Source: Flavobacteriales bacterium (lineage in GTDB: Bacteria; Bacteroidota; Bacteroidia; Flavobacteriales; BACL11). Taken from it: 64,000 nucleotides of DNA. The stretch spans positions 62,001 to 126,000 of the forward strand of contig PAHP01000006.1 in the NCBI GenBank assembly GCA_002705205.1. The letters are read 5' to 3'. The notes under the pieces are model-generated. The model was not told the DNA's origin. It did not search any database and was given only the letters and a program-made list of their open reading frames with translations. The position numbers and the translations under genes were made by a program. Below, piece by piece: positions 26,201-61,125 of this stretch (position 1 is the stretch's first letter; each line of letters starts with the position of its first letter).

Positions 26201-27622
26201 ATGTCCCCAATTCTATTAATTAGTATAATTTCATTATATTTTATACTACTTTTCTTTATCTCATATTTAACAGGTAAAAATGATAGCAATGAAACTTTTT
26301 TTAGAGGTAATAGAAGCTCTCCATGGTATGTTATTGCTTATGGGATGATAGGGACAACTCTTTCAGGGATTACTTTTATTTCAGTTCCTGGATGGGTTGA
26401 TTCTAGCCAGTTCTCTTATATGCAAATGGTATTCGGTTTTTTCGTTGGATATTTTATTATCTCAAGAATACTACTTCCACTTTATTATAAACTTGAGTTA
26501 ACGTCAATATATACTTATTTAAGAGATAGATTAGGAAATAGTAGCTATAAAACAGGTTCTTTGTTTTTTATACTCTCTAGAACAATTGGCGCTTCATTTA
26601 GACTTTTTCTAATTGCTACAGTTTTACAATTTGCTGTTTTTGATTCATGGAATGTTCCATTTTATATAACAGTAATCATTACGATCTCTCTTATTTGGCT
26701 TTATACTTATAGAGGTGGTATGAAAACTATTATTTGGACCGATACACTTCAGACAACATTTATGTTATCTACTGTTATTATTATTGCTTATACACTTATT
26801 CAGAAAATGGATTTAAACTTTTTATCTGTTGTTTCATTAATTAATGAGTCAGATTATTCAAGGGCTTTCTTTTTTGATGATTGGACAGATAAAAAATACT
26901 TCTTTAAACAATTCTTCTCTGGTATGTTTATGGCTATTGTAATGACTGGTCTAGATCAGGATCAGATGCAAAAAAATCTGAGCTGTCGAAATTTAAAGGA
27001 TGCACAAAAAAACATGACATTCTTCAGTACAATACTAATCTTTGTGGATCTTATATTTCTGTCACTTGGTGCGTTACTTTACATATATTCAGATACATTT
27101 AATATAATTATTCCTGGAAATGCAGATATGTTGTTTCCAAACATTGCTTTGAATTCTGGACTGCCAGTATATGTTGGGATACTATTTATAATTGGAATAA
27201 TAGCTGCTGCTTACTCTAGTGCAGATTCAGCATTAACTTCTTTAACTACTTCTTTTTGTGTTGATATTATTGAATTTGAAAAACAAGATCCAAATCAGCA
27301 AGTTAAAACAAGAAAATATGTTCATTTATTATTCTCTCTTATTCTATTAGCTGTAATTTTAATATTTAATGCTATTAATGATCAGAGTGTAATCAAATCA
27401 TTATTCACTGTTGCTGGTTATACTTACGGACCACTTCTTGGAATGTTCTCATTTGGACTTTTCACCAAATATAAAGTTAAAGATGAATATGTTCCATTAA
27501 TTGCCATTGCCTCTCCAATTATCTGTTATATTTTAAATCTATATATTCCTTTTGGATTTGAATTATTGATATTAAATGGTTTGATTACATTTATAGGCCT
27601 ATATTTATTAAAAACTAAATAA
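26201..27622 (+). CDS. Sodium/solute symporter (SSS family)
   Basis: Inner-membrane transporter of 473 residues with about 13 hydrophobic segments. The pattern fits the sodium:solute symporter family: SYLTGKNDSNETFFRGNRSSPW after helix 1, GMIGTTLSGITFISVPGWV, YTYRGGMKTIIWTDTLQT, and IAAAYSSADSALTSLTTSF, the Ser/Thr-rich sodium-site region of helix 8. The substrate (sugar, proline, pantothenate and so on) cannot be assigned. It is divergent from recR. Right after its TAA stop, in the same frame, lies an unrelated 18-codon relic of a secreted-protein gene. Confidence 0.92.
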   Translation: MSPILLISIISLYFILLFFISYLTGKNDSNETFFRGNRSSPWYVIAYGMIGTTLSGITFISVPGWVDSSQFSYMQMVFGFFVGYFIISRILLPLYYKLELTSIYTYLRDRLGNSSYKTGSLFFILSRTIGASFRLFLIATVLQFAVFDSWNVPFYITVIITISLIWLYTYRGGMKTIIWTDTLQTTFMLSTVIIIAYTLIQKMDLNFLSVVSLINESDYSRAFFFDDWTDKKYFFKQFFSGMFMAIVMTGLDQDQMQKNLSCRNLKDAQKNMTFFSTILIFVDLIFLSLGALLYIYSDTFNIIIPGNADMLFPNIALNSGLPVYVGILFIIGIIAAAYSSADSALTSLTTSFCVDIIEFEKQDPNQQVKTRKYVHLLFSLILLAVILIFNAINDQSVIKSLFTVAGYTYGPLLGMFSFGLFTKYKVKDEYVPLIAIASPIICYILNLYIPFGFELLILNGLITFIGLYLLKTK

Positions 27623-27628
27623 AAAAAA

Positions 27629-27682
27629 TACTTCTTAATCTACGATGACGGAACAGTAGAGCAAAGAATAGTTATAGAGTAG
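27629..27682 (+). pseudogene. 18-codon C-terminal relic of a type IX cargo gene
   Basis: The bases read YFLIYDDGTVEQRIVIE and then TAG. This closely matches the last residues of the choice-of-anchor-B protein at 59.1 kb (LFYLFDDGTVEKRIVVD, then stop), a variant sorting tail of secreted Bacteroidota proteins. Only the tail is present, directly behind two Lys codons after the symporter stop and in the same frame. Its last 11 nt overlap the end of the convergent lgt gene. It is best read as what is left of a deleted gene; in-frame read-through of the symporter stop is possible but makes little sense for a membrane transporter. Confidence 0.75.
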
Positions 27683-28838
27683 ATTTTTTATTTTTATTAT
27701 ATAAAATAGTACAACCTGTTATTCCAATAAGGACTAAGCAGAAAGAAATAATCTCTGCCTGGGTAATGCCTCCTAATATATTATATTCGGTATTTATTCT
27801 TATCTTTTCAATAAAAAAACGTTCAATACCATTTAATACTAAGTAGGTGAAAAACATGACTCCAGCTATTTTTATCCTTTTACGAATAGTCCATAAGAAA
27901 GAAAAAATAAGAACCGCCATGATAACTTCATAAAAAGCAGTAGGCCATACTGGATTTGCTAATTCATAGCAATAAGGGTGCCAGAATTTATCTCCACAAT
28001 CTTCCATTGGTATTCCAGCACGAATCACATTATGAGGAAAGTTATAGCTCCACATCCAATCAGGTAAGTAGCTCATCCAATCAGGTTTTGCAGCTAAATT
28101 ATTAATACCCCAGTCTCCATCTCCTGACATTTGACAGCCAATCCTGCCAACTCCATAAGCAAGCATTAGTCCAGGTGCTGCAGAATCTGCTAAATGTAAA
28201 GGTTTTATTTTATATTTTTTGCCATACCAAATAACCGCTATAGTTCCTGCAATAAGTCCACCATAAAAGGTAAGTCCACTAAAAGAAATTAATTGACTTA
28301 TTGGATCAGCTAAAAAAAGATCTATATTCTCAAGGTTATGAAATATTTTTGCTCCTATAATACCAGATATAGCAGCAATCATAGTCATATTACCTGCTAA
28401 TTGAAAAGGATGAACCTCTTTCTCAATCTGTTTTGGAGTTTCTAATCTATCTTTATTTTTTTCTTTATACTTTAAGTAAATTGAAATCCCAGCAATAATG
28501 ACTCCTCCTAACATATGCCCCCTTAATGATAGAATAAATCCTTGTGGATCAAGGACTAAATCAGAATAGTTTAAGATAGCTTCTATACCTTTAAATCCTA
28601 TGATAAAACCACTAATAAGAGAAGATAGAATTTCTGTTTTTGTAATGCCTTCTCCTATAACCTCTTTTATCTTGCTAGAAGATATAATTCCTTCTTGTTC
28701 TTTTCGCTTTAGTTCAAGCAATAGTATCATGCTTGCAGAAATAAATGCCATAGCTACAAAAAAACCAAAGGTTTGAATTGGTAGAGGAATATTCATTCCA
28801 AAAAGATCATATATAAGATGACTTATTGTTGGGTACAT
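27672..28838 (-). CDS. lgt: Prolipoprotein diacylglyceryl transferase
   Basis: Inner-membrane enzyme that attaches diacylglycerol to the lipobox Cys, the first step in making the many lipoproteins seen here. The key segment GRIGCQMSGDGDWG (about residue 230) and the GGLIAGTIAV helix fit the family. At 388 residues it is about 100 longer than common Lgt proteins. The extra part (about 70-135) looks like a second copy of the first catalytic-half segment: ISGFIIGFKGIEAIL...RGHMLGGVIIAG compared with ISGIIGAKIFHNLE...GLTFYGGLIAG (about 155-215). The last codons overlap the gene relic at 27629-27682. It follows mtaB by 17 nt. Confidence 0.93.
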   Translation of the reverse strand: MYPTISHLIYDLFGMNIPLPIQTFGFFVAMAFISASMILLLELKRKEQEGIISSSKIKEVIGEGITKTEILSSLISGFIIGFKGIEAILNYSDLVLDPQGFILSLRGHMLGGVIIAGISIYLKYKEKNKDRLETPKQIEKEVHPFQLAGNMTMIAAISGIIGAKIFHNLENIDLFLADPISQLISFSGLTFYGGLIAGTIAVIWYGKKYKIKPLHLADSAAPGLMLAYGVGRIGCQMSGDGDWGINNLAAKPDWMSYLPDWMWSYNFPHNVIRAGIPMEDCGDKFWHPYCYELANPVWPTAFYEVIMAVLIFSFLWTIRKRIKIAGVMFFTYLVLNGIERFFIEKIRINTEYNILGGITQAEIISFCLVLIGITGCTILYNKNKKSTL

Positions 28839-59124: not shown

Positions 59125-61125
59125 ATGAACATGAAAAAAACTCTAATCTTAATACTTTTTATAACACCTATATTAATTATAGCGCAAAATTCCTATAACT
59201 TAACGCTAGTAGCAGATTACGAATGGTTTTCTACTGAGGGAAATGATATATGGGGGTGGGTAGATCCTTTAGATGGTGCCGAATATGCCCTTGTAGGCTT
59301 AAACGATGGTTTTGCTTGTGTTAATGTTAGTTCTGCATCAAACCCTATTTTGGAATTTGAGATTCCTGATTTAAATTCAACTTGGAGAGATGTAAAGACA
59401 TGGGGTAATTATGCTTACGTTACTACTGAAGCAGATGCTGGTTTATTAATAGTAGATTTAACTGATATGACTGGAAATACTTATTGGCATTTAAGTACCT
59501 TTAACAACCCTTCTACAGGAGCAACAGTTGAGTTTACAGCAGCACATAATTTATATATTGACGAAAAAGGAATATGCTATATCTTTGGTGCCAGCCTTAA
59601 TGGTGGAGGTTCAAACCCTTCAGATGGAGCGATATTTTTAGATGTTGGAAATAATCCTACAAATCCAATTTATCTAGGTGAATGGGATGAAGAGTATATT
59701 CATGATGGTATGGTTAGAGGAGATACTATGTATGCTGGCTGTATATATACTGGTGATCTTTATATTGTTGATGTAAGCAATAAAAATAACCCTGTGACTA
59801 TAGGAACACATCAAACTCCTAGTGCTTTTACACATAATGCTTGGATAAGTGATGATGGAAATCATGTTTTTACCACTGATGAGACCTCAGATGCTTATAT
59901 TGGGTCCTACAACATATCAGATATGTCTAATATCCAAGAAGTAGATAGAATCCAATCCAATCCTGGATCTAATTCAATCCCTCATAATACTCATGTTGAT
60001 GGAAATTTTCTTGTCACTTCATGGTACAGAGATGGAACAACAGTTCATGATATCTCTAATCCAAATAATTTAGTTCAGGTTGCTTATTATGATTCTTATT
60101 CAGGATCTGGCGATGGATTTGATGGTTGTTGGGGAACATACCCATTTTTACCCTCAGGTATTATAATTTCATCTGACATTAATACTAGTAGTAATGGGAA
60201 CGCACGATTATTAATATTTGAAAGAGGCTTTTCTAATGCTTGTTATTTGGAAGGAAATGTTATCGATGGTAATAGTGGATTAAATCTCACAGGAGCTACT
60301 GTTGTAATCTTAAATACTACTATACCTAATAGTTCTAGCACTAATTTAAATGGAGAGTATACTAGTGGTAATGCTGATGCAGGCACTTTTGATGTTGAAT
60401 TTTCAATGCTAGGTTATATTTCTGACACTTTGCAAGCAACATTGATTAACGGACAAGTTGTTTTGCTAAATGCTACATTATATAATGACCCTAATATGCC
60501 AATTTTAGGCTGTATGAATCCATTAGCAAATAATTATAATCCTAATGCGAACACATCATTAGAATTTGGAGGAGAGTATGATAATACTTTTTCTACTGGA
60601 GGTTATTTTAATGGTAATCAGCATCTAATTTTTAACGCTACAACTGATTTATTAATAAAGTCAGCAGTATTTTATGCTGATGACCCAAGATCAGTAACTT
60701 TTGAGTTAAGAAATAATAGTGGGAACGTTATTGATGACACAACACATTTATTAATTCAAGGTGCACAACAACTAACTTTAAATTTTGAAGTGCCTGCTGG
60801 AACAGATATGCAATTAGGTATTTCTAGCGGGAATACGGGCTTATATAGAAATAATGATGGAGCTAATTACCCTTATAATATTGGTTCAGTAATGAGTATT
60901 ACTGGAAATAGTGCAGACCCTGATTATTATTATTTCTATTATAATATTGAGGTTGAAGTTCCTTGTGACAATACAATATTAGGTCTTAATCATGTAGACA
61001 AACCTACAAGAAGCATGTTCAAAGTGACAGACGTATTGGGTAGAGAAGTAGGTTATAGTTCTAATCAAACGCTGTTCTATTTATTTGATGATGGTACAGT
61101 TGAGAAAAGAATTGTTGTAGATTAA
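59125..61125 (+). CDS. Choice-of-anchor-B/LVIVD surface protein with variant sorting tail
   Basis: Secreted protein of 666 residues (ATG at 59131 is equally good). Signal peptide MKKTLILILFITPILIIAQ. LVIVD-type propeller repeats at about 30-370 (YALVGLNDGFACVNVSSASN, AGLLIVDLTD, GDLYIVDVSNKNNP, THNAWISDDGNHVFTTDE) mark the choice-of-anchor-B family. A carboxypeptidase-regulatory-like domain follows at about 375-450 (CYLEGNVIDGNSGLNLTGAT), then GCMNPLANNYNPNA, a Cys-Met-Asn repeat module. The tail (MFKVTDVLGREVGYSSNQ ... FDDGTVEKRIVVD) is a type A-like sorting signal. Its stop touches the convergent permease stop with no base between. Confidence 0.85.
   Translation: MNMKKTLILILFITPILIIAQNSYNLTLVADYEWFSTEGNDIWGWVDPLDGAEYALVGLNDGFACVNVSSASNPILEFEIPDLNSTWRDVKTWGNYAYVTTEADAGLLIVDLTDMTGNTYWHLSTFNNPSTGATVEFTAAHNLYIDEKGICYIFGASLNGGGSNPSDGAIFLDVGNNPTNPIYLGEWDEEYIHDGMVRGDTMYAGCIYTGDLYIVDVSNKNNPVTIGTHQTPSAFTHNAWISDDGNHVFTTDETSDAYIGSYNISDMSNIQEVDRIQSNPGSNSIPHNTHVDGNFLVTSWYRDGTTVHDISNPNNLVQVAYYDSYSGSGDGFDGCWGTYPFLPSGIIISSDINTSSNGNARLLIFERGFSNACYLEGNVIDGNSGLNLTGATVVILNTTIPNSSSTNLNGEYTSGNADAGTFDVEFSMLGYISDTLQATLINGQVVLLNATLYNDPNMPILGCMNPLANNYNPNANTSLEFGGEYDNTFSTGGYFNGNQHLIFNATTDLLIKSAVFYADDPRSVTFELRNNSGNVIDDTTHLLIQGAQQLTLNFEVPAGTDMQLGISSGNTGLYRNNDGANYPYNIGSVMSITGNSADPDYYYFYYNIEVEVPCDNTILGLNHVDKPTRSMFKVTDVLGREVGYSSNQTLFYLFDDGTVEKRIVVD

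Follow-up and report, generated by a model that had tools for sequence, protein, structure and literature searches.

A very probable deletion scar of a secreted-protein gene between convergent symporter and lgt genes in a Flavobacteriales bacterium

Introduction

Type A C-terminal domains (CTDs; PF18962, TIGR04183) end in basic and hydrophobic residues and are carried by many unrelated protein bodies. According to PMC10202324, type A CTDs need their last 13 residues for secretion, and for the HBP35 CTD the last 22 residues are enough. Bacterial gene remnants are recognized by homology to intact genes, by the loss of a start codon and by a larger or intact counterpart in relatives, and they shrink between conserved genes. 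A further process, border-induced selection, has been put forward in PMC9748784, by which a neutral stretch flanked on both sides by conserved sequence withstands complete deletion; its authors model human introns and name prokaryotic spacers as a possible use. A literature search with the letters 'DDGTVEKR' and 'YDDGTVEK', which are typical of the tails described here, found no mention of them, and on remnants and CTDs it returned general papers only.

Here we describe a short intergenic sequence in a 64,000-nucleotide stretch of a Flavobacteriales genome, referred to as the window (part of contig C7 of genome G000, a 1.21-Mb, 20-contig assembly estimated to be 73% complete). A sequence-only reading had taken 54 of these bases to be the tail of a lost type IX cargo gene. 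Its observation is partly confirmed and its interpretation partly supported. We find it very probable that a secreted cargo gene once lay between a symporter gene and lgt and that nearly all of it was deleted, its end and probably also its start being left behind as a scar.

Results

The scar lies between two convergent genes. The upstream neighbour (26201–27622, plus strand) encodes a sodium:solute symporter (SSF; PF00474, E 1.2e-21) that also matches TIGR00813 at E 7.9e-42, under that model's curated cut-off, and its TAA stop (27620–27622) borders the relic. The downstream neighbour, lgt (prolipoprotein diacylglyceryl transferase; 27672–28838, minus strand; PF01790, E 1.5e-38), has its stop at 27672–27674, so that 49 bases separate the two stop codons. 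In the frame of the symporter stop, bases 27629–27682 read YFLIYDDGTVEQRIVIE and a stop, and the longer stretch 27623–27682 reads KKYFLIYDDGTVEQRIVIE and the same stop, a TAG at 27680–27682 on the plus strand. The last 11 bases (27672–27682) overlap the 3′ end of lgt, as judged from the sequence and its open reading frames, such that the lgt stop and last lgt codons are the antisense of the dead gene's last codons. Both the shared frame and the overlap had been claimed from the sequence and are confirmed. Between the symporter stop and the tail stop the tail frame contains no ATG, GTG or TTG codon, and ATA stands where a start would be expected; hence the remnant is not translated by ordinary initiation. 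Within 26201–28838, the symporter is closest to those of G017, G043, G040, G018 and G038 (87–89%), lgt to those of G033, G020, G013, G038 and G034 (72–75%) and topoisomerase IV to the g10 group. Judged by these similarities, the scar's two neighbour genes may have different histories.

The relic's similarity to intact gene ends is far more than chance. A single 29-residue query from the window's own surface protein (59125–61125, plus strand; choice-of-anchor B family, TIGR04312, 197 bits against a cut-off of 100; tail LFYLFDDGTVEKRIVVD) matches 27 places in the genome, among them the relic at E 0.0064 in an open frame of 19 residues. With a 29-position profile built from 23 tails of the same genome, the relic itself excluded, the match reaches E 3.2e-7 (31.5 bits, profile positions 13–29), and is strong only from about 27638 onward. 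At base level, a model built on the final 45 bases of 23 tails from the source genome gives 55.0 bits for 27638–27682 (IYDDGTVEQRIVIE and the TAG stop), compared with a median of 52.8 for intact tails; random sequence with the same dinucleotide make-up (first-order Markov, 4 Mb) nowhere exceeds 18.1. The relic tail thus scores like an intact one and has hardly decayed. The proposed kinship with the 59.1-kb protein holds as to tail type; that protein is not the best partner, however, with 33 of 45 bases identical against 39 of 45 for the nearest intact tail in the genome (G000:C2:48233). The remnant accordingly resembles intact genes at a significant level, lacks a usable frame of its own and corresponds, in G013 and G038, to a larger or intact gene at the same junction.

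The symporter–lgt junction was compared in relatives outside the source genus, mostly Flavobacteriales assemblies that are presumably marine, and an intact gene was sought in other lineages. A search of 100 genomes, the source genome among them, recovered the symporter in 74; it yielded 30 loci, and longer stretches of 20 were read. Most relatives have neither cargo gene nor relic at this position. Among genomes with both genes in one stretch, the two overlap or nearly abut in G010, G007, G019, G032, G001 and G018, 14 bases lead to the lgt stop in G034, and lgt is broken in G051. Elsewhere the junction holds a short frame resembling a lipoprotein within about 170 bases (G024 and G014, by eye), a secreted protein of 231–236 residues (G039 and G030), an opposite-strand gene (G043 and G036) or 6,214 bases comprising a large cargo gene and a second gene (G040). 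In G017, G016, G002, G004 and G003, which showed no lgt next to the symporter, a secreted-type gene likewise follows it. In G001 the symporter gene itself (L018/L068, G001:C2:352255-353676) shifts frame near codon 411.

A complete cargo gene occupies the junction in G013, as the sequence-only reading had anticipated for such a comparison. Its 2,273 bases hold one 764-residue CotH gene (E 1e-66), which starts with a TTG on the symporter stop and ends in FYLYQNGIVEKKIVF with a short extension. In G038, an ATG overlapping the symporter TGA opens the gene of a 312-residue signal-peptide/Lcl_C protein, and after its stop a tail remnant, VERRIVIE and a stop, lies on the lgt stop in the same register as in the window. 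The G038 gene is not in frame with its own tail remnant, and so may have taken the place of the ancestral cargo. A shorter remnant, TGAAAAAAGAATATTTATAAAATAG, sits on the lgt stop of G034, again in the window's register (last 24 bases, 22.4 bits, p 2.5e-7 per position). A tail model of the last 24 bases was run on the space before lgt at 35 loci (30 of the 38 lgt-matching genomes and 5 others). Of the 34 that could be scored, exactly three have their best score above 20 bits at precisely +11 from the lgt stop, namely the window (26.6), G038 (29.1) and G034 (22.4), and these three align without gaps through the tail end and on into lgt. The junction across relatives can be read as a deletion series of a surface-protein gene in small, presumably marine genomes, from a complete gene (G013) through an eroded tail (G038), the 64-base scar of the window and a shorter scar (G034) to no trace (G018, G001). 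The claim that a secreted-protein gene was deleted behind the symporter is borne out by these relatives, which carry a complete or partly eroded cargo gene at the junction.

The bases before 27638 probably derive from the other end of the lost gene. Bases 27619–27637 (plus strand) read ATAAAAAAAATACTTCTTA in the register in which the cargo start codon of G038 and G013 overlaps the symporter stop: ATA replaces ATG or TTG, and an A-run and the first signal-peptide codons follow. Compared with 19 cargo-type starts from the source genome, positions +4 to +19 of this head, 16 bases in all, reach 16.3 bits without a gap. Random sequence of 1 Mb contains no position scoring as high, and of 352 ORF ends used as controls only 3 do, the window locus (counted twice, as window and as L001) and one true cargo start; another true cargo start scores 15.3 bits. 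The alternative, on which the sequence-only reading had settled, is that only the tail survives and that these bases are eroded tail. The tail upstream of its conserved end likewise has an A-run followed by ATAC, the 16 A-rich bases on which the head match rests still score 9.05 bits as eroded tail, and a detached tail in G043 (L177) has an in-frame E-K-N-T stretch able to imitate ATGAAAAAAATAC. That best fit, however, needs a fitted 7-base gap, whereas the start reading is gapless, scores higher and has its register fixed by relatives. We therefore regard survival of the tail alone as rather unlikely. The scar is probably about 19 bases of cargo start joined to about 45 bases of cargo end, 64 bases in total. 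On this partition, the YFL at the beginning of the 54 bases, all of which had been assigned to the tail, more likely belongs to the start, the tail assignment standing from about 27638, and the idea that the rest of the gene has vanished entirely probably does not hold. The A-run is of uncertain length, so that head and tail may have been joined in frame or out of it.

Detached tails also occur elsewhere in the family. The tail profile gave 302 matches in 13 genomes, 57 (E ≤ 1), 130 and 115 (E ≤ 0.001), of which 16 have an open frame of fewer than 60 residues. Classified by eye, eight of these are detached tails: the window, G000 C14:51630, G013 C14, G013 C4, G009 C1:235532, G012 C1, G011 C4 and G005 C17. 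The second of them in the source genome (G000:C14:51630-51716, L169, minus strand) consists of 39 tail residues without a body, directly behind a gene that we take to be KdsA-like. By eye, that of G009 resembles a start (ATGAAGAAATTACTATCTT) fused to a tail in a different frame, that of G011 has two internal stops and that of G005 is a fragment. The remaining short frames were not counted, four lying at contig ends (G013 C37, G029 C4, G011 C18, G021 C10) and four being frameshifted or degenerate tails of longer genes (G001 C2, G009 C1:302415, G029 C24, G011 C15).

A pattern for a start followed closely by a tail (TGAARAAR, then the tail pattern within 0–30 or 31–61 bases) was matched 18 and 2 times, respectively, in 52 family genomes, and a reversed control pattern once. 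This count was rejected as a tally of ghost genes, since 16 of the 20 matches are tails of longer open frames or lie at a locus edge; the search does not discriminate because E-K codons within the tail imitate a start. Only four short frames emerged (L171, L177, L184, L190), of which L177 fits a tail no less well than a start. L190 (G044:C5:5489-5566) is a detached tail at the end of another gene, presumably stomatin/SPFH-like, whose last codons (MKKKK) and stop may derive from the dead gene. Another locus in the source genome, L032 (G000:C14:64063-64122, minus strand), has a 96-residue frame with a signal peptide, a body of about 50 residues and a divergent tail (DNNKILFYIYDDGTIKKRITTK); a large in-frame deletion in a cargo gene may have produced it.

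The tail itself belongs to a family that current models do not flag. More than 20 proteins of the source genome, with differing bodies, end in a tail of about 40 residues (KLLKVTDLLGRE..N.PLFYIYDDGTVEKRIIIE; 59125–61125 of the window and cargo loci L034–L050). Five tails of this type gave no match to Pfam or NCBIfam CTD models at E ≤ 10, PF18962 and TIGR04183 included, and neither the 59.1-kb protein nor the G013 gene matches these two models. In a class-wide sample of 149 genomes, tail matches at E ≤ 1e-6 occur in three, with 26 in the source genome and one in each of two others, and at the thresholds used all 13 family genomes searched carry 10 to 48 matches. The tail family is almost confined to one bacterial family. 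It resembles type A CTDs in its C-terminal position, its basic and hydrophobic last residues (KRIVIE), its many unrelated bodies and the presence of SprA in the genome (2,668 bits, cut-off 200), but differs in being only about 40 residues long, in matching no model and in its nearly single-family range. The last 11 columns of the tail profile line up with ordinary type A CTD ends at an hhalign probability of only 4.5%, which does not establish homology to these. The SprA match points to a type IX translocon in this genome and makes type IX export of the tailed proteins plausible. The tails would then be type IX signals, so that the description of the lost gene as type IX cargo is compatible with the translocon although no CTD model recognizes tails of this type.

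Discussion

An ancestral order of symporter, cargo gene and lgt, in which the cargo start codon would have lain over the symporter stop and its last codons over the lgt stop, accounts for the arrangements in the window, G038, G034 and G013. The comparisons show that the body of the cargo gene was lost in the source lineage and that its tail is left at the shared position; nearly the whole gene was presumably removed by a single large deletion, the tail apparently staying where it was. The scar probably persists since further deletion would cut the symporter or lgt, pinning both its ends; the last 11 bases are directly protected because the antisense of the tail encodes the last lgt codons. The scar's existence requires no present function. 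Like the sequences modelled under border-induced selection (PMC9748784), it would be a neutral stretch between conserved borders, an analogy that may apply here. It differs from described bacterial gene remnants in being only 64 bases long and in probably keeping both ends, and is recognizable only because its tail is a conserved sequence of many copies.

Other origins for these bases fare less well. Tail and symporter stop share a frame that no other stop interrupts, and readthrough of the TAA could in principle append the tail to the C-terminus of the symporter. The shared frame is nonetheless incidental, since the G034 remnant lies in a different one; a 312-codon gene intervenes in G038, the symporter genes of most relatives end without such a tail and a surface-sorting tail is unexpected on an inner-membrane transporter. 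Readthrough is therefore scarcely credible. It is somewhat less far-fetched, and still very improbable, that gene conversion or the movement of a mobile gene end brought the tail to a junction that never had a cargo gene in the source lineage. Paralogues and even different genera have family tails of similar DNA sequence (up to 93% over 44 bases), which favours such an arrival. Yet among the 23 tails, codons of matching residues are identical in 59.0% of cases; codon usage predicts 50.9%, and random middle segments reach 57.5%. Conservation at the protein level thus explains most of the DNA similarity, with little DNA identity in excess of the protein's needs. Head codons show a slight excess of the same kind (0.510 against 0.416 expected, 14 genes). 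Cargo genes at the same junction in relatives, and a tail end collinear with G038 and G034 into lgt, speak against transfer as well, and the notion of movable gene ends, put forward in the sequence-only reading, is not upheld.

A present role for the bases, for example as a terminator between the convergent genes or as the end of lgt, is suggested by the 11 bases that encode the lgt end on the opposite strand and by a tail no more decayed than intact ones. The relic has no terminator-like site, however, the one site found (27736–27760, minus strand) being inside lgt; and of 16 further family genomes in which a single stretch contains both symporter and lgt, only G034 has a remnant, while G013 has the intact gene. 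We consider retention for such a role highly unlikely, and prefer the deletion of a cargo gene between the two borders.

The last codons of a dead gene can hence persist as the antisense end of its neighbour, and conserved tails are usable as tracers of lost cargo genes. The unmodelled tail family is probably a more useful lead than the scar, because current family models do not flag its proteins as secreted cargo. We suggest tentatively, as a possibility about which we remain doubtful, that the tail YDDGTVEKRIxIE serves as a minimal signal for outer-membrane export, so far uncatalogued and restricted to one marine Flavobacteriales family, and is borne by tens of unrelated cargos whose genes come and go at fixed junctions. 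If so, ghosts consisting of a head and a tail would be a readable fossil record of surface-protein turnover in this family.
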